From Strigamia acuminata (Eukaryota; Arthropoda; Chilopoda; Geophilomorpha; Linotaeniidae): a DNA stretch of 64,000 nucleotides. The stretch is from contig OX442314.1 in the NCBI GenBank assembly GCA_949358305.1, positions 13,449,060 through 13,513,059 of the forward strand, in the 5' to 3' direction. Position 1 is the first letter of the stretch, and the number at the start of each line of letters is the position of its first letter. The position numbers were made by a program, and so were the translations under genes. The notes beneath the pieces are model-generated. The model did not search any database, had not been told where the DNA came from, and worked only from the letters and a program-made list of their open reading frames with translations. Shown piece by piece: positions 47,332 to 57,801 of this stretch.

Positions 47332-47340
47332 ACTTTAAAA
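47332..47340. repeat. Left 9-bp target site duplication of the MULE
   Basis: actttaaaa directly precedes the left terminus. An identical actttaaaa directly follows the right terminus at 54548-54556. Nine bases is the standard duplication length of Mutator transposition. Confidence 0.95.
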
Positions 47341-47453
47341 GGGACAGGATAATTTGCGGAACCGCGGAACTGGCGGAACCGGCGGAACCGATGGGTTTGG
47401 AGAAAACCCGGAATCGCCAATCCTGCGGAAACGGCGGAACGGCGGAACAAGCT
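47341..47453 (+). repeat. MULE left terminal inverted repeat
   Basis: 113 bp, matching the right terminus in reverse complement. At least six GCGGAAC-type motifs lie at near-regular spacing. Confidence 0.93.
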
Positions 47454-47785
47454 ATGGAGGTCAGGGAAAAATAAATTTTAAAAATAAACAAAACTAAAAA
47501 TAAATAAGAAAAAAAAATAAAAACAAATAAAAACAAACAAAATAAAAATAAAGAAAAACAAACAAATATAAAAAATTTGCAATTTTTTTTCCTTAAAATT
47601 AATTTCATTTCTCCAAAAAAAAATTTCAAATTTTATAATGACTCAGTATGCATATTTTTTCGATTATTAATAAATTATATAGAAATTTTCAACAATTAGC
47701 GTGTAATTAAACGATCCGCAAGTGGTATAATACAAGAGTTACAGCAGCACCATATGGTGGCAAAATGCTATAAAATCAAACAAAA

Positions 47786-48300
47786 ATGGCGCCCAGAAAG
47801 GAAAACATGAACATGAACATGAACATGAAGCATGGTAATAACACGATTAAAGGTGAGTAAATTATTTTTGATAAAAAAATTAGGTATGTAACTACAATTG
47901 ATTCTTAAAAACTATTTCTTCCATTCAAACAACCAGAAAACTGAAAACTGAACGAGAATACGGGAATCGAACATCGGAATTGGAACAAAAAAGAAACAAA
48001 AACTTCAACAGACTGAACTATGATAATAAGGGGTTGGTGTAGCTTAGAATCGAAACATTACGGTAAGTTGATAGTTTATTAAAAACGGTAATTATTGTTT
48101 TCAAAGAAAATTATAAACTCAACATGAATAAGAAATAAAAATTCCAATTGCTAGGCAATATTGGAACGGGGATGTTCCATGGTCTATAGAGAAAGACAAC
48201 AGTGCAACAGGAGAATGCCGAGTACCGAGAAGCAGCTGAACTATTCTAATCAGGAAAATTTGTTCAGTGATATGATAATTTGAAGTCGTAACGTTTTTTC
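47786..48300 (+). other. Spliced-looking plus-strand unit inside the MULE
   Basis: caaaaATGGCGCCC starts a short frame (MAPRKEN followed by a repeated MN run) ending at a good donor (ttaaag/gtgagt, about 47852). Acceptors follow at about 47937 (caaccag) and 48155 (ttgctag), and a second donor at about 48061 (ttacg/gtaagt). No long frame continues through the exons. It may be a small element transcript, a captured 5' exon, or chance. Confidence 0.3.
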
Positions 48301-48428
48301 GACGGTTGTTTGTTCCGTTTGTTCCCCGTTCATTTTTTCTCTGGTCATTTGTTTCCTGTTCATTTTTCTCTGGTCATTTGTTCCCTAGTTATCTTTTAGA
48401 TGTTCATATTTTCAAAATTCATTATTTC

Positions 48429-48463
<35 letters not shown>

Positions 48464-48629
48464 ATGAGTTAATGCTTTTACGATTAAATGAAAATAGTCA
48501 AAGTTCAAATGGAAATTTATATCAGTTACATTCTCTTCACAGTGTATGTAATGAAGAGGCTAAACAGACGTTACAAAAAAAACAAGCTTATTTTTTTGCC
48601 TGTCGAAAAAACGAACCCCGATAATTTTA

Positions 48630-51600
48630 TCACAGATTTTTGCATGTCTTGCATACAAAATATTTTGTTGCTTTCAAGACTGAATCAGCTATTGAAATAC
48701 AACCTTGGTGAAACCATTTCCGACACAGAACACAAAACACTTGTTTATCCCCATGGCTTTCATTTTTTTTACAGTCCTGAATTTCACAGATAGTCCAATT
48801 CTTCGAATTATCAGATTCTTTGAGTAAACTAGCGATTTCATTGAAAGTTGTCTCTTCCAAAGTTTGAAGATTTTTTTCAATCCTATCTTGGATGTTATCT
48901 AAGGACACAGCAGCATTGTAGAACTTTTGGTTCAATGATCTATTTAAATTAATTTTCTTTTTAATTGGTGATGATTTAACATTTTCATTTGACATTATCG
49001 CAGTTCCAATCCAAAATCGGGCATTCTTGCTGACAAAACTGCAGTCCAAAACATTCTGCAATATTGCCGATGCGTACACACATACAAAAACGCCACAGTC
49101 AAAAGTGTTTCTTTGCTTTTCTGCATCTATGCAAATTTTGGCTTGCCACAGATTAACTTGGAATGGTAAATCTGCTATCAGATGACAAGCAGCAGCTAAA
49201 GTTGTAAGGTAGCATATGTACTTATCATAGTTTTTCTCAGGGGAGTACGCAGAATCTATTATATAAACACATCTGGTTTTGAAATAAATTATCCCGAGAA
49301 ACCAATGATCATTGTCAACGTTGATTGGTGCAAGGAGAATTTCTTTTTCTAGTGCAGCTGCATTATTTAGGTATTTAAGAATAGGATCCCATTTTGATTT
49401 CACTCTCTTTGGTGATTCAAAAAATGACACAAAATAAGCAGGGCACAATGATGCAACTTCTTTCAAATCATTATTATTAATTTCAGCTGTAATAAAGCTG
49501 TCTAAAATTATGTCTGAAAGCCACACTTCTGGTTTCAGAGTTTCTAACTCTTTTAGCAAGTCCATTTTAATAGTATTTGGAATTTTCATCGGTGATGATG
49601 GACAAGGGTTTTTCCATGGTAAACATTGCTGCAATTTGTCATTTTTGACATGTATTTCTGTCTGTGGGGTAGATGATGAAAATTTCAGCTTGCTTTTAGG
49701 AGTGCTGAAACCTTGATCTTTGCAAACTGGTTTGTCAAAAGTTGAATTCAAATTATAAGATGAAGCTATTTCTAGAGAAGGGCTAGACACATTTTCAGAA
49801 TCACTAAACGAGGCATGCATTTCACACTCATCCTCGTCTAGGAACTGTTTACTTAATTGCGAATCAGGAGCTGCAATTACGTCGTAATCGAAATCTTTAG
49901 GCCTAGGTCTTTTTCGCCCTGCCTTTCCTTCTCGTCCTTTAGCCTGCTTCCGTAGCACTGATAAGTTGTATGTGGCTGTGTCACATTTGCTGATGTTGGT
50001 AGATAATTCGACAGCCAAAATGTGATAACATTTCCCAGTGCTTGGACATGTGCATATCCATTTTCCTGTTCCTGGTGCTGAAATAACTGAATAGGTTGAA
50101 TTATTTTTAACACTTTTCACAAGAAAACATTTGAATTTGGGATGAAGCCCAACATAATCCCGCTCTACACACAGTTGGGCTATCATTGTTTGTGTTAGCC
50201 TGTAGGTATCACTCTTTTCTACTGTGTGATTCCCTTTTGCTAAATTGCATTGTTCTACAATGGTTTCAGGTGGAAGAAATGGTGGGATATCGATGACAAT
50301 TGGACTTTTAAAAGATTCTTTCATTTCATAATTCCCCAGCTTTAGTTCTGCCCGATGAAACTCATTCAGATAATAGCAAATTAAGTAGTGAAAAATAAGC
50401 ACAAAAGTATCAGCAGGCAATTCGTCCCAGTTCACTTCACGCTTTAAAACATAATTAAAACTCTCAGAAATGTTGTTAGTTGCAGATATTCCTTGAAATG
50501 CTCCAAATTTTTGTCGAATAAATTTTGCACTGTGCTTTTGTATGTGGGGGAAAATGTTTTCCTTTATGTAGCACTTAAATTTATCTGACCAAGATACTTC
50601 AAAAGCTGCGTACATCTCTAACAATGATTCATTAGAATTACAATCAAGCAACCTTTCAATATCATCTTTCAACACTTTAATGTCACAGGAATTTCCTCCA
50701 TTTTTCTTGAGCCAATGCTCAACATCTTTAAGCAAATGATTTTGGCAAATTATGAGAGGAATATTAGGGAACAGTTCATTCAAAGATGATATTATTCCCT
50801 GTTCACGGTCACAGACAAATGGAATGTTTGATGATTTATCCATGCCAATTTTTTTTAGAATGGATTCAAGAAACTTTTTATGACAACTTTTAAACTTTCT
50901 CTCATGAATCATGAAAGCAACTGGAAATATGGGATTGTCAATCAGGCGGATATTTCTTATCACAAGAACAGACACATAAAAATCCCCTAGATTAAAAGTT
51001 GTATCATATGATACGACTTGACCAAGCAATGGATTCTTCTTACTTGTTGTGATAATGCTTTTTGCATAGCTTATCGCACTGGGCAATGAGTAAATCACAT
51101 TCAAATCAGGAAAAATGTCAATCGATTCTATACTTCCTAACTGGTGGGCTATTTCGTTCAAACCAAAAATGGCATCATTTGATAAGCGTGATTTTTCTCT
51201 TTCTATTCTGATTGCATTTTTTACTTGATCCAGGTTTCTTGGACGATCGACAGGCATGTGAGCAGCATCACCTAAAGTGCTCTGCTTAGCAAGCAAGGAT
51301 TTATATATAGTTGATGCAGTACTTTGTTTATTGTTAATCTCAGTGATTAAATTTTGAAATACTTTTTTTTGTGATGCGACATACGGTTTATCTCCCCTTT
51401 TTCTATTCCCATGGTTGCTAGGAATATGTAGTGAGTGGTCACCAGTATACGAAATTAAAAAAAAAATTTCATTATTTGGAAGATTAAAAACAGATCTTTT
51501 AAATTCTTTCAAACAATCATTTCCTGATCCTGCTGGATCTTTTAACCAGAAATAACGTTTTATTACTTCTGAATTTGCTTTGGATCTCCCCTGTGCTCTC

Positions 51601-51812
51601 CAACGGTATTGGTCATATCGAAAATCTTTTTTCCCATCACCGTCTTGGGCCTTATAAAGGTACACCTCTCCCCCTTTTGGAAAAACTGGTGGCACATGAG
51701 CAATCAACGATTCTTCAATTTTACCTTTTGATGCATCTAACAAAATGGTTAAAGCATCCCTTGAAGACAACTCTTTGCCACCCATCTGTTTATAAATTGG
51801 AACTGCAGCCAT
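48630..51812 (-). CDS. MULE transposase fused to SWIM, Ulp1-like protease and PHD finger
   Basis: An uninterrupted 1060-aa frame starts at ATG 51812 (open upstream to 51839 without an ATG). Residues 1-150 hold a DNA-binding-like region ending TGDHSLHIPSNHGNRK. Residues about 262-455 are a MULE DDE domain: D270 in SYDTTF, D335 in FVCDREQG, NHLLKDVEHW, and E450 in TNNISESFN as the likely third acid. A SWIM zinc motif has C587, C589, C595 and H597. After a Ser-rich linker a C48/Ulp1-type protease runs about 745-920, with H836 (NDHWF), D853 (IIDSA), Q900 and C906 (FDCGVFVC). A C4HC3 PHD finger ends the protein (C1009, C1014, C1027, C1030, H1035, C1038, C1054, C1057). All catalytic and zinc residues are present, so it looks functional. 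Ulp1 fusion to MULEs is known in plants. Confidence 0.92.
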   Translation of the reverse strand: MAAVPIYKQMGGKELSSRDALTILLDASKGKIEESLIAHVPPVFPKGGEVYLYKAQDGDGKKDFRYDQYRWRAQGRSKANSEVIKRYFWLKDPAGSGNDCLKEFKRSVFNLPNNEIFFLISYTGDHSLHIPSNHGNRKRGDKPYVASQKKVFQNLITEINNKQSTASTIYKSLLAKQSTLGDAAHMPVDRPRNLDQVKNAIRIEREKSRLSNDAIFGLNEIAHQLGSIESIDIFPDLNVIYSLPSAISYAKSIITTSKKNPLLGQVVSYDTTFNLGDFYVSVLVIRNIRLIDNPIFPVAFMIHERKFKSCHKKFLESILKKIGMDKSSNIPFVCDREQGIISSLNELFPNIPLIICQNHLLKDVEHWLKKNGGNSCDIKVLKDDIERLLDCNSNESLLEMYAAFEVSWSDKFKCYIKENIFPHIQKHSAKFIRQKFGAFQGISATNNISESFNYVLKREVNWDELPADTFVLIFHYLICYYLNEFHRAELKLGNYEMKESFKSPIVIDIPPFLPPETIVEQCNLAKGNHTVEKSDTYRLTQTMIAQLCVERDYVGLHPKFKCFLVKSVKNNSTYSVISAPGTGKWICTCPSTGKCYHILAVELSTNISKCDTATYNLSVLRKQAKGREGKAGRKRPRPKDFDYDVIAAPDSQLSKQFLDEDECEMHASFSDSENVSSPSLEIASSYNLNSTFDKPVCKDQGFSTPKSKLKFSSSTPQTEIHVKNDKLQQCLPWKNPCPSSPMKIPNTIKMDLLKELETLKPEVWLSDIILDSFITAEINNNDLKEVASLCPAYFVSFFESPKRVKSKWDPILKYLNNAAALEKEILLAPINVDNDHWFLGIIYFKTRCVYIIDSAYSPEKNYDKYICYLTTLAAACHLIADLPFQVNLWQAKICIDAEKQRNTFDCGVFVCVYASAILQNVLDCSFVSKNARFWIGTAIMSNENVKSSPIKKKINLNRSLNQKFYNAAVSLDNIQDRIEKNLQTLEETTFNEIASLLKESDNSKNWTICEIQDCKKNESHGDKQVFCVLCRKWFHQGCISIADSVLKATKYFVCKTCKNL

Positions 51813-51839
51813 AACCAAAAAAAGTGAAAGCACCCACAC

Positions 51840-52270
51840 AGCTACTACAGCACAAACTTAGTGCAGAAAATTAAAAATCAAATTAAAAAAGCAGCCAGAC
51901 AGCTACTTCAGCACAAACTTAGTGCAGAAAATCAAATGAAAAATGGAAAAAAGCAGCCAGACAGCTACTTCAGCACAAACTTAGTGCAGAAAATTAAAAA
52001 TCAAATTAAAAAAGCAGCCAGACAGCTACTTCAGCACAAACTTAGTGCAGAAAATCAAATGAAAAATGGAAAAAAGCAGCCAGACAGCTACTTCAGCACA
52101 AACTTAGTGCAGAAAATTAAAAATCAAATTAAAAAAGCAGCCAGACAGCTACTTCAGCACAAACTTAGTGCAGAAAATCAAATGAAAAATGGAAAAAAGC
52201 AGCCAGACAGCTACTTCAGCACAAACTTAGTGCAGAAAATCAAATGGAAAATGGAAAAAAGCAGCCAGAC
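51840..52270. repeat. Minisatellite in the MULE: seven units of 61/62 bp
   Basis: Unit starts fall at 51840, 51901, 51963, 52024, 52086, 52147 and 52209. Units alternate between a 61-bp form (..aaattaaaaatcaaattaaa..) and a 62-bp form (..aatcaaatgaaaaatgg..), giving a 123-bp dimer. All share 'agctacttcagcacaaactt' and 'agtgcagaaaat'. The array begins directly upstream of the transposase start. Because 123 is 41 codons, the plus strand shows an open frame of 41-residue repeats; this is a consequence of the period. Confidence 0.95.
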
Positions 52271-52884
52271 AGCAAGCTATTTATCTTGTGCAGTAAGCAC
52301 AAGGCAGCTATACTCTAATTGTCTGACAAAGCAATTCCAAACAACACCAAAGTCAAAATGAAAATTCAATATACCAAAGGAAAGCCAAAGGAAAGCCAAA
52401 GGAAAGCAAGACATGCAAACAGTGAATTGTGATTGCAGACTGCCAACAGGAAGGCATGCATTGCACCCTATATATATAGTAAGACATAGGATTTTGAATC
52501 TCCAATGAAATTCAAGAATATGTGAATTTCCAATGGAATCCAAGCATCCAAGAATCCTTCCAATCCTGATCAACAGGAACTGGATACCCAGGACTCATTA
52601 AGGACCTGACCTAATAGAGAGCTTAATTTTTTGCTGCAAAAAACCGTTAAATTGCCCCTATCCTGGGAACCCCTATCTCTGGATAAGGTTTTGTGGAAAT
52701 TTTATCTGCCCCAATTAGACATTTCATTAAGGCAAAATAGGATAAAAGGGAGAAATGTGGTGAAGTCTCAAAATTATTAATCTCACAAGTCAGTTTCTTT
52801 TTGAAATTTTGTCTTAAAAAGGCAAATTTTTGGCAAAGCTCTCTTTTTTTCCAAAATTCGTTTGTTTTGATCTTACCAAATAAG

Positions 52885-53722
52885 GGCATGTTCCGTAATA
52901 TTAAAATGAATGGCCCACTGGGAACAAATAAAACATTTTTTGCGAAGGTAATATTACATTTTTAAAAAAGAAGGTTTTATTTACATTTACACATATTTGC
53001 AGAGGTTGGCATTACATTCTGGAATGGACTACGCCATCATGCCGCGTGGTGATGTTGCTACAATGGCGCGCGAAGGGGTCACATCTATGCGCAAATTGTT
53101 TGACTGGATTACAACTAGCAGAAGAGGGCTCTTGCTTCTCATAGATGAAGCTGATACAAACGTAATTTATTAACAATTTCAATTTTTTAAGATGTTGTAA
53201 CGTTTAATTAACCTTTATGCACGATAGGGATTAACAACGTTAAATGCATCCCTATACAAACTGGTGAACAATCGAAAAAGTAAGAAAAATTATTTAAAAT
53301 TAGCACGTTTATATTTTATTCGTACTTTTTACATTTTTTTTTAGATTTATACGTGTATTGTACTAGCCAGAATAACAGGAAGAGAAATTGCAAAATGAGG
53401 AGTTACATGGCAGGTATTATGAGTATCAAATTCGTCTTTATGATAATAAATTCTAAATTTGAGTAAATATTATTTTCAGGCTGCTGTTTACGCCGCTGAA
53501 GATGAAATTCTGTCTCATCAAATGGCGATGGATCGTGACAGACTCCATGAAACAAAATAAACAAAGTAGAATGGATGAGTGACTTCTTGGCAAAGAAAGA
53601 TGGACGTCTTCCCGAGGTCGCCGAATCAGGCAGTGCTACAACATCCGAGTCGAGTATATCTTCAATAGGTGTGATGGCTGGCAATATTTATCAAATGACT
53701 GCTGCTTCTAAAGAATCGAGCT
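52885..53722 (+). pseudogene. ATAD3: Broken ATAD3 fragment captured in the MULE
   Basis: ATAD3 is a mitochondrial inner-membrane AAA ATPase. Exon-like pieces with splice signals still in place are: about 52885-52947 (FRNIKMNGPLGTNKTFFAK), 53003-53161 ([18 protein letters not shown].. to [11 protein letters not shown]), 53228-53280, 53345-53412 and 53480-53722. They follow human ATAD3 in order from Walker A through Walker B to the C-terminus. Lesions are plain: Walker A is GPLGTNKT instead of GPPGTGKT, a frameshift lies near LNASLYK/TGEQSKK, a deletion joins LVLA-like sequence to TGREIAK, a TGA follows GREIAK, and another frameshift lies before VEWMSDFLAKKDGR. The host ATAD3 gene is not in this window. 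Introns show that capture was from DNA, not from mRNA. Confidence 0.9.
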
Positions 53723-54432
53723 AAAAATTTTGTGTGTAAAATGCAAATTTGTAGTGTATACAGATTTGTAGTGTATATATTTGGTAATATATTTTCTGCA
53801 ATTAAAATGACGAGTGAAAAGAAATGAGGTGTGACTGAGTTATTGTCCATTTTCTAATAAATTTTTATTTTGTATATTATATAATATGTTCTTAGTCTAC
53901 AAAAATAATTAAAATTAAAAATTAAAATTTACAAAAGCAATCTTACAAAATTACAAATTCCAAGGTAACAGGTTGGGTATTCTTTGTTTTCGATGTTTTT
54001 GTTTCAATTTGATAAGTTTTGACTAATTGATACATCAATTTAAGTGCCCTACCAAAAGCCCCAAAATTCGAAATGCAGAACTGATTTGTTGAAAATATTT
54101 TAACGCTTAATGTGAAAAACTCCCCATGACATCCAGCAGTTTTAATCTCAGTGAAATTAATCAACTATTTTGTAAGGTTTAAAAAAAACTACCAAACCAA
54201 GAACTACATAAAATTTATCTATACTTGCAACTGCAACAATTTTTTAAAATTTAACGTAAAAAGCTTAAAAAATTAAGCGTTTAAACGAAATCGATCTCAA
54301 ACCTGAGCTCAGTGTGAATATGGCATTCTCTGATAAGTGATTTATTCCTAGCAATTAGTGTCTATCTGTTTAATGGGAGATTTTTTTCAACATAGTGGTA
54401 CAGTAATATACAAATTTTATTTTTTCCAGATC
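53723..54432. other. MULE right spacer
   Basis: AT-rich sequence between the ATAD3 fragment and the right terminus. No frame or repeat family was recognised. Confidence 0.6.
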
Positions 54433-54547
54433 AGCTTGTTCCGCCGTTCCGCCGTTTCCGCAGTATCAGAGTGATCCCGGGTTTTCCGCAAACCCATCGG
54501 TTCCGCCGGTTCCGCCAGTTCCGCGGTTCCGCAAATTATCCTGTCCC
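54433..54547 (-). repeat. MULE right terminal inverted repeat
   Basis: 115 bp, ending ..aaattatcctgtccc, the reverse complement of the left terminus, followed at once by the duplication actttaaaa (54548-54556). Confidence 0.93.
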
Positions 54548-54719
54548 ACTTTAAAATACAATTTTATGATTTTTTTGTAAATGTATGTTTGGAATAATTG
54601 TTAAATTATTTATTTATTTTTAATATTATTTATTATCTGGATTTAGTAGAGTTTGTGCTGAAATATTTTAGACCAATGAGAAATGTCTGTTCGCTAAACC
54701 TGAAACGTAGAAATAGAAA

Positions 54720-57801
<3,082 letters not shown>

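Follow-up and report, generated by a model that had tools for sequence, protein, structure and literature searches.

The window, i.e., the whole 64,000-nt stretch analyzed here, corresponds to C1:13449060-13513059 of the 237.5-Mb genome of Strigamia acuminata (GCA_949358305.1, OX442314.1), and in protein searches the closest named relative was the geophilomorph centipede Strigamia maritima, with 90% identity for ATAD3 and 83% for Taspase. Window positions 47341-54547 are occupied by a Mutator-like element (MULE) of 7207 bp, in which a segment derived from the host gene ATAD3, a mitochondrial ATPase gene, sits between the transposase and the right end. The element and its captured segment are composed as follows.

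47332..47340, no strand: left TSD, ACTTTAAAA, the same 9-mer occurring outside both TIRs
47341..47453, plus strand: left TIR, ~113 bp, 93% identical to the right TIR
48630..51839, minus strand (leftward): MULE transposase ORF of 1069 aa with MULE and Ulp1 (C48) domains
51827..52273, no strand: ~62-bp tandem repeats, with a unit pair of 123 bp
52274..52833, no strand: MULE non-coding region, also found in loci without ATAD3 DNA, where similarity stops at or before 52833
52834..52877, no strand: left junction filler of ~44 bp, partly common to the old relics L015 and L016
~52878..~54402, plus strand: captured segment of the host ATAD3 locus, from within exon 8 to exon 13 with four introns, then 3'UTR, polyA signal and intergenic DNA
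52878..52947, plus strand: 3' part of ATAD3 exon 8, with Walker A now GTNKT
53003..53161, plus strand: ATAD3 exon 9, with a 10-bp deletion close to its 3' end
53228..53279, plus strand: ATAD3 exon 10, with deletions of 18 bp and 1 bp
53345..53413, plus strand: start of exon 11 joined to the end of exon 12 via a ~283-bp deletion, with an in-frame TGA
53480..53724, plus strand: ATAD3 exon 13, with frameshifts, running to the parental stop codon
53856..53861, plus strand: AATAAA polyadenylation signal, retained
54433..54547, minus strand: right TIR
54548..54556, no strand: right TSD, ACTTTAAAA

The features by which MULEs are recognized were found at this locus. The TIRs are ~114 bp long and 93% identical, beyond the >100 bp of long TIRs, and the TSDs, at 9 bp in all six full copies of the element and 8-9 bp in all seven derivatives checked (of 23), lie within the 8-10 bp range. 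The transposase matched the MULE domain PF10551 at 29.5 bits against a cut-off of 27.6 (E=1e-6); its PF00872 match fell below that profile's own cut-off, and PHD and SWIM matches were sub-threshold only. Its reading frame was open in all six full copies. To the right, the MULE ends ~170 bp upstream of the putative first ATG (54720) of a MYST acetyltransferase gene at window 54548-57800, one exon of which matched MOZ_SAS with E=2.3e-43 and which we take to be of the KAT5/Tip60-like subfamily.

The host ATAD3 gene itself (locus L014, C1:17.597 Mb) was intact, as its 13 exons join to 620 aa without internal stops, and its protein carries the Pfam domains ATAD3_N and AAA. When all 10 candidates were scored, L014 was the sole full-length nucleotide match to host ATAD3 in the genome, although such a DNA search may miss a diverged paralogue; the remaining matches were the six elements, two short relics and one 40-base piece on C9. 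Apart from ATAD3-locus DNA, no element match of at least 60 bp was found in the 9.9 kb around the host gene. Downstream of ATAD3, positions 54-236 of L014 resemble the ATAD3 3' region (73.5% to window 53802-53983), perhaps as a local duplication.

The fragment matched the host gene at the nucleotide level with E values of 5.8e-146 (82%) and 3.9e-110 (85%), far past chance. Its limits on the host locus are L014 6375 within exon 8 (window 52878) and L014 ~4449 (window ~54402), and window ~54403-54414, judged by eye, is probably host-derived as well. The five blocks stem from six host exons (8-13), exons 11 and 12 being fused; the intron between these two is absent because the fusing deletion took it out too. 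The initial annotation, made from the window sequence alone, had described five ATAD3-like pieces in gene order, with splice signals and introns retained, lying within the TIRs, and all of this was present; most splice sites remain in place. It had placed the fragment at 52885..53722, where ATAD3 sequence does lie, but the captured DNA starts at ~52878 in exon 8 and ends at ~54402, ~680 bp beyond 53722, the position at which the stop codon begins.

Copies in plant Pack-MULEs keep introns, and a lack of similarity to the host introns had been named beforehand as evidence against a capture. Excluding gaps, the introns of the fragment were 84.6% identical to those of the host over 240 aligned bases (37/240, 15.4% divergent), and the 3'UTR plus downstream DNA was 85.3% identical over 658 (97/658, 14.7% divergent). 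Capture of host ATAD3 by a MULE at the DNA level is thus upheld. The damage reported earlier was equally real: Walker A reads GTNKT instead of GTGKT, there are frameshifts, a single TGA lies in frame and an internal part is deleted. With gapped columns dropped, divergence from the host at codon positions 1, 2 and 3 was 14.0, 8.0 and 12.1% (28/200, 16/199 and 24/198). The proposed comparison with the genome's own, intact ATAD3 yielded a dN of 0.108 and a dS of 0.196 over 192 codons, a ratio of 0.55 (bootstrap 95% interval 0.32-0.95), with ~0.5 expected for a neutral copy compared with a constrained parent. By this sequence measure the fragment evolves in a pseudogene-like manner, the interval being compatible with constraint as well, and it is most likely without any function as a protein.

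As the initial annotation had advised, the fragment was sought in other copies of the element, and it was found in six full copies, the window copy included, rather than in one. All six have identical outer TIR ends, and each is bordered by its own perfect, different 9-bp TSD. Four copies are a single substitution (51815) away from the window copy, and two of these also have 123 and 369 additional bases in the repeat tract at 51827..52273. The fifth other copy, L013 (C1:47.585 Mb), has 29 substitutions, 4 to the left of 52274 versus 25 to the right, a distribution suggesting that L013 may be a mosaic of two element lineages.

A second, shorter form of the element was represented by a 2.5-kb derivative at L048 (102-2645; C1:2958401-2960944), whose TIRs are the same as those of the full element. 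Its left half is repetitive and folds back on itself; this is followed by a short segment from the left sub-terminal region, by DNA from downstream of ATAD3 and by the right TIR. In L048, the only derivative to be read throughout, nothing matched the transposase ORF. The inner junction is consistent with a deletion that brought ~47472 and ~53903 together at AAAA(T), and only ATAD3 downstream DNA, without any ATAD3 exon, is retained. Because L048 keeps host DNA further downstream than the 7.2-kb element does, the original uptake was longer than what the latter now holds. Scoring of all 32 candidates placed the derivative at 23 loci, 21 of them complete over the 701-bp query and 2 incomplete, and 20 of the 21 complete ones (query counted) reached the self score over the 701 bp. 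TSDs of 8-9 bp bordered L048 and six further derivatives, i.e., all seven that were checked. The left part of L048 (181-1756) is a large fold-back palindrome of short tandem repeats, and one derivative at C6:12503499-12513137, with TIRs 9.6 kb apart, presumably carries a large insert.

Taken together, the element family has dispersed ATAD3-locus DNA to 29 genomic places (6 full and 23 derivative loci). The family was further surveyed through its TIR end pattern, allowing at most 2 mismatches and using the reversed pattern as a control; ends were paired by orientation and neighbourhood, and derivatives were assigned by comparison with the 23-locus set. The survey returned 62 terminal matches, compared with 0 for the control, and these resolved into 28 pairs (6 full elements and 22 derivatives), with one half derivative and 5 ends left over without a partner. 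Given that all 28 pairs are either a full element or a derivative, all pairs found carry ATAD3-locus DNA, more diverged ends being invisible to this pattern. No ATAD3-locus DNA was detected in the ~1.2 kb taken at each of the five unpaired ends.

Like a Pack-MULE, the 7.2-kb element bears a host gene fragment between its TIRs with the parental copy elsewhere, and the parental copy at L014 is not flanked by the same TE when matches of at least 60 bp are considered. The initial annotation had called it Pack-MULE-like, which holds for the capture of a host gene by a MULE but not for the strict sense of the term, which calls for the lack of a transposase: because an open transposase is retained, the 7.2-kb element is a transduplicating autonomous MULE and no strict Pack-MULE. 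The 2.5-kb derivative does provide a transposase-less form, but one with downstream DNA only and no ATAD3 exon. Transcripts or small RNA from the captured part are common in Pack-MULEs but do not define them.

Older traces of the family were also present in the genome. L015 and L016, whose sequences are nearly identical for the most part, contain a 117-bp relic with 87% identity to the element; the relic includes the altered Walker A codons and some of the left junction. Decayed transposase relatives share 85-89% protein identity. Several loci match the MULE non-coding part only as far as 52751-52833. At six of these, no ATAD3-locus DNA was found in the 2.2-3.1 kb past the end of the match, and no right TIR (5 substitutions allowed) was found in the 2.2-2.5 kb fetched at loci without ATAD3 DNA. 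In place of the ATAD3 slot, L061 and L066 continue as AT-rich repeats and L065 as other DNA, while in L063 and L064 element matches are slight or absent. No ATAD3 was found beside the decayed transposase copy on C8 (L062, L031), where the locus is scrambled. In none of the 11 relative loci scanned was a TIR found, nor was an ATAD3-free full-length element. In a related MULE at C1:6935630-6940292 (L025, L026, L061), the transposase pieces have only 43-54% protein identity to the window element, but identity reaches 84-98% in the 62-bp repeats and in the non-coding DNA upstream, as if modules had been exchanged between MULE families.

The timing of the capture was addressed by aligning 194 codons of the fragment with the host and S. 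maritima proteins. Of these, 139 were the same in all three and 30 were changed in the fragment only, one being the stop; at the 25 sites differing between host and S. maritima, the fragment had the host residue at 14, that of S. maritima at 4 and neither at 7. Since the fragment sides with the host at 14 sites and with S. maritima at only 4, the capture most likely occurred after the split from S. maritima, and some host changes probably postdate it, as the fragment resembles S. maritima rather than the host at those 4 sites. These 4 sites would also make a sister species a possible donor. In the shared stretch, the window element diverges by 2.4% from L013, 6.5% from the derivative and 15.1% from the host. 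The window element, L013 and the derivative share one non-host base at 57 sites, a count that is unrooted and includes host-side changes, as well as one 43-bp gap versus the host; 3 further sites favour other groupings. These site patterns, with the 57 sites read as unrooted, indicate that a single capture underlies all carriers, and that it took place long before the recent burst. Because no more than one site separates five of the six full copies, and all but one of the 21 complete derivatives stand at the self score, the bursts are far younger than the capture; to judge from such near-identical copies, the MULE was apparently mobile until recently.

Two other origins of the fragment can be set aside. 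A segmental duplication of ATAD3 with a MULE inserted afterwards is extremely improbable and was rejected, as the fragment occupies the same place in six elements with six different flanks and TSDs; moreover, the whole host gene matches the six loci only within the element, and the 0.9-1.3 kb flanks of the six copies contain no ATAD3 match, the one weak 42-base match beside the window copy lying outside the ATAD3 gene. An equally negligible chance attaches to a processed, mRNA-derived copy having landed in the element, which was rejected on account of the four introns and of host DNA reaching ~640 bp beyond the host polyadenylation signal. A recent entry of the element by horizontal transfer, ATAD3 having been taken up in a related species, would account for five of six full copies being at most one substitution apart beside a ~15% non-coding divergence of the fragment from the host locus. 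We nevertheless regard it as unlikely, because the fragment sides with the host at the diagnostic codons counted above, because dS is about twice dN, as with capture from the host's own gene, and because the diverged junction relics L015/L016 and the transposase relatives reside in the same genome.

The fragment might serve as a regulatory device, with antisense or small RNA derived from it reducing the expression of ATAD3. Such an action is possible in principle given stretches of 32, 27, 26, 23, 21, 20 and 20 nt that match ATAD3 exons exactly, and most splice sites and the AATAAA are kept. Since the transposase gene points leftward, transcription beginning in the right TIR would place ATAD3 antisense sequence in the leader, and long Mutator TIRs are said to contain promoters (PMC3310237). 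Against this, neither the divergence by codon position nor the dN/dS of 0.55 gives a sign of constraint on the fragment, and the commonest form, the 2.5-kb derivative, is without any ATAD3 exon. We therefore hold this role to be unlikely, if slightly less so than horizontal transfer, and it is similarly doubtful that each burst of element activity would also yield RNA, perhaps small RNA, against host ATAD3.

The explanation we favour, at a probability of about 0.9, is that of an autonomous MULE which stayed mobile until recently and which carries, as a passenger, 3' DNA of the host ATAD3 inherited from its ancestor. The ancestor would have acquired ~1.9-2.2 kb of contiguous DNA from the ATAD3 3' end, beside its right TIR, perhaps by template switching or gap repair while the element was being replicated or excised, and the uptake may have left the ~44-bp filler at the left junction; this presumed mechanism is modelled on the template-switch proposal for Ssk-FB4 (PMC8277862). 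As suggested by one junction, a ~6.4-kb internal deletion at the AAAA(T) microhomology would then have produced the transposase-less derivative, which, with ATAD3 downstream DNA only, would have moved in trans. The proposed order is capture, decay, deletion and burst.

MULE gene capture has been studied mainly in plants, and the centipede element offers a clear animal example. One animal genome here combines an intact parent and a carrier whose transposase is open with a deletion derivative and old relics. The succession of events is legible from sequence, and one system allows tests both of how the capture works and of how it affects the parent gene. Among the literature matches listed, at the level of titles and abstract beginnings, no ATAD3-carrying or centipede MULE was reported, few of these matches having been sought under the name ATAD3. 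According to the portions of the papers compared, a survey of 100 animal reference genomes found no Pack-MULE and one polymorphic family in flies (PMC8277862), an arthropod MULE survey mentions gene capture as a possibility (PMC13359780), and plants are treated in PMC6431247; PMC8074501 names Pack-MULE only in its references.

The following comparisons likewise refer to the parts of the cited papers considered here. In plants, Pack-MULEs and transduplicates resemble our element in MULE TIRs, 8-10 bp TSDs, a parent elsewhere and often multiple copies, whereas strict Pack-MULEs lack the transposase that the 7.2-kb element has (PMC8277862, PMC6446971, PMC5225508). The Tm1 Mutator/Foldback elements of root-knot nematodes share 9-bp TSDs, inverted ends of complex, repetitive structure, the coexistence of autonomous with non-autonomous members and a proposed host uptake (a histone hairpin), but are thought inactive by their authors, with no multi-exon parental gene described (PMC3169594). 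Muta1 of Aedes aegypti is likewise an animal MULE whose copies in the genome are identical and whose TSDs measure 8-9 bp; unlike here, its transposition was shown in yeast and no host gene fragment is reported in the part compared (PMC5225508). In Nematostella, an insertion at the Nv1 locus places animal DNA between MULE ends at several loci and was called "suggestive of a pack-MULE", but it spans ~15 kb, and the part compared contains no parental gene or transposase analysis (PMC9842752). A further relative in kind is Ssk-FB4 of Drosophila melanogaster, taken by its authors to represent Pack-MULEs in Drosophila: host genic DNA is enclosed by an arthropod MULE-like element, repeated transposition is evident from distinct TSDs (9-10 bp), as it is from the distinct TSDs here, and a junction insertion of unknown origin measures 45 bp compared with ~44 bp in the centipede (PMC8277862). 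FB4, however, is non-autonomous with its transposase unknown, whereas the centipede element has one, and the captured Ssk gene, almost complete and polymorphic, has been reported to form a young coding family, whereas the ATAD3 copy is old, broken and present in all six full elements (PMC8277862). With Ssk-FB4 and the sea anemone insertion as animal precedents in print, the centipede element is a new animal case.
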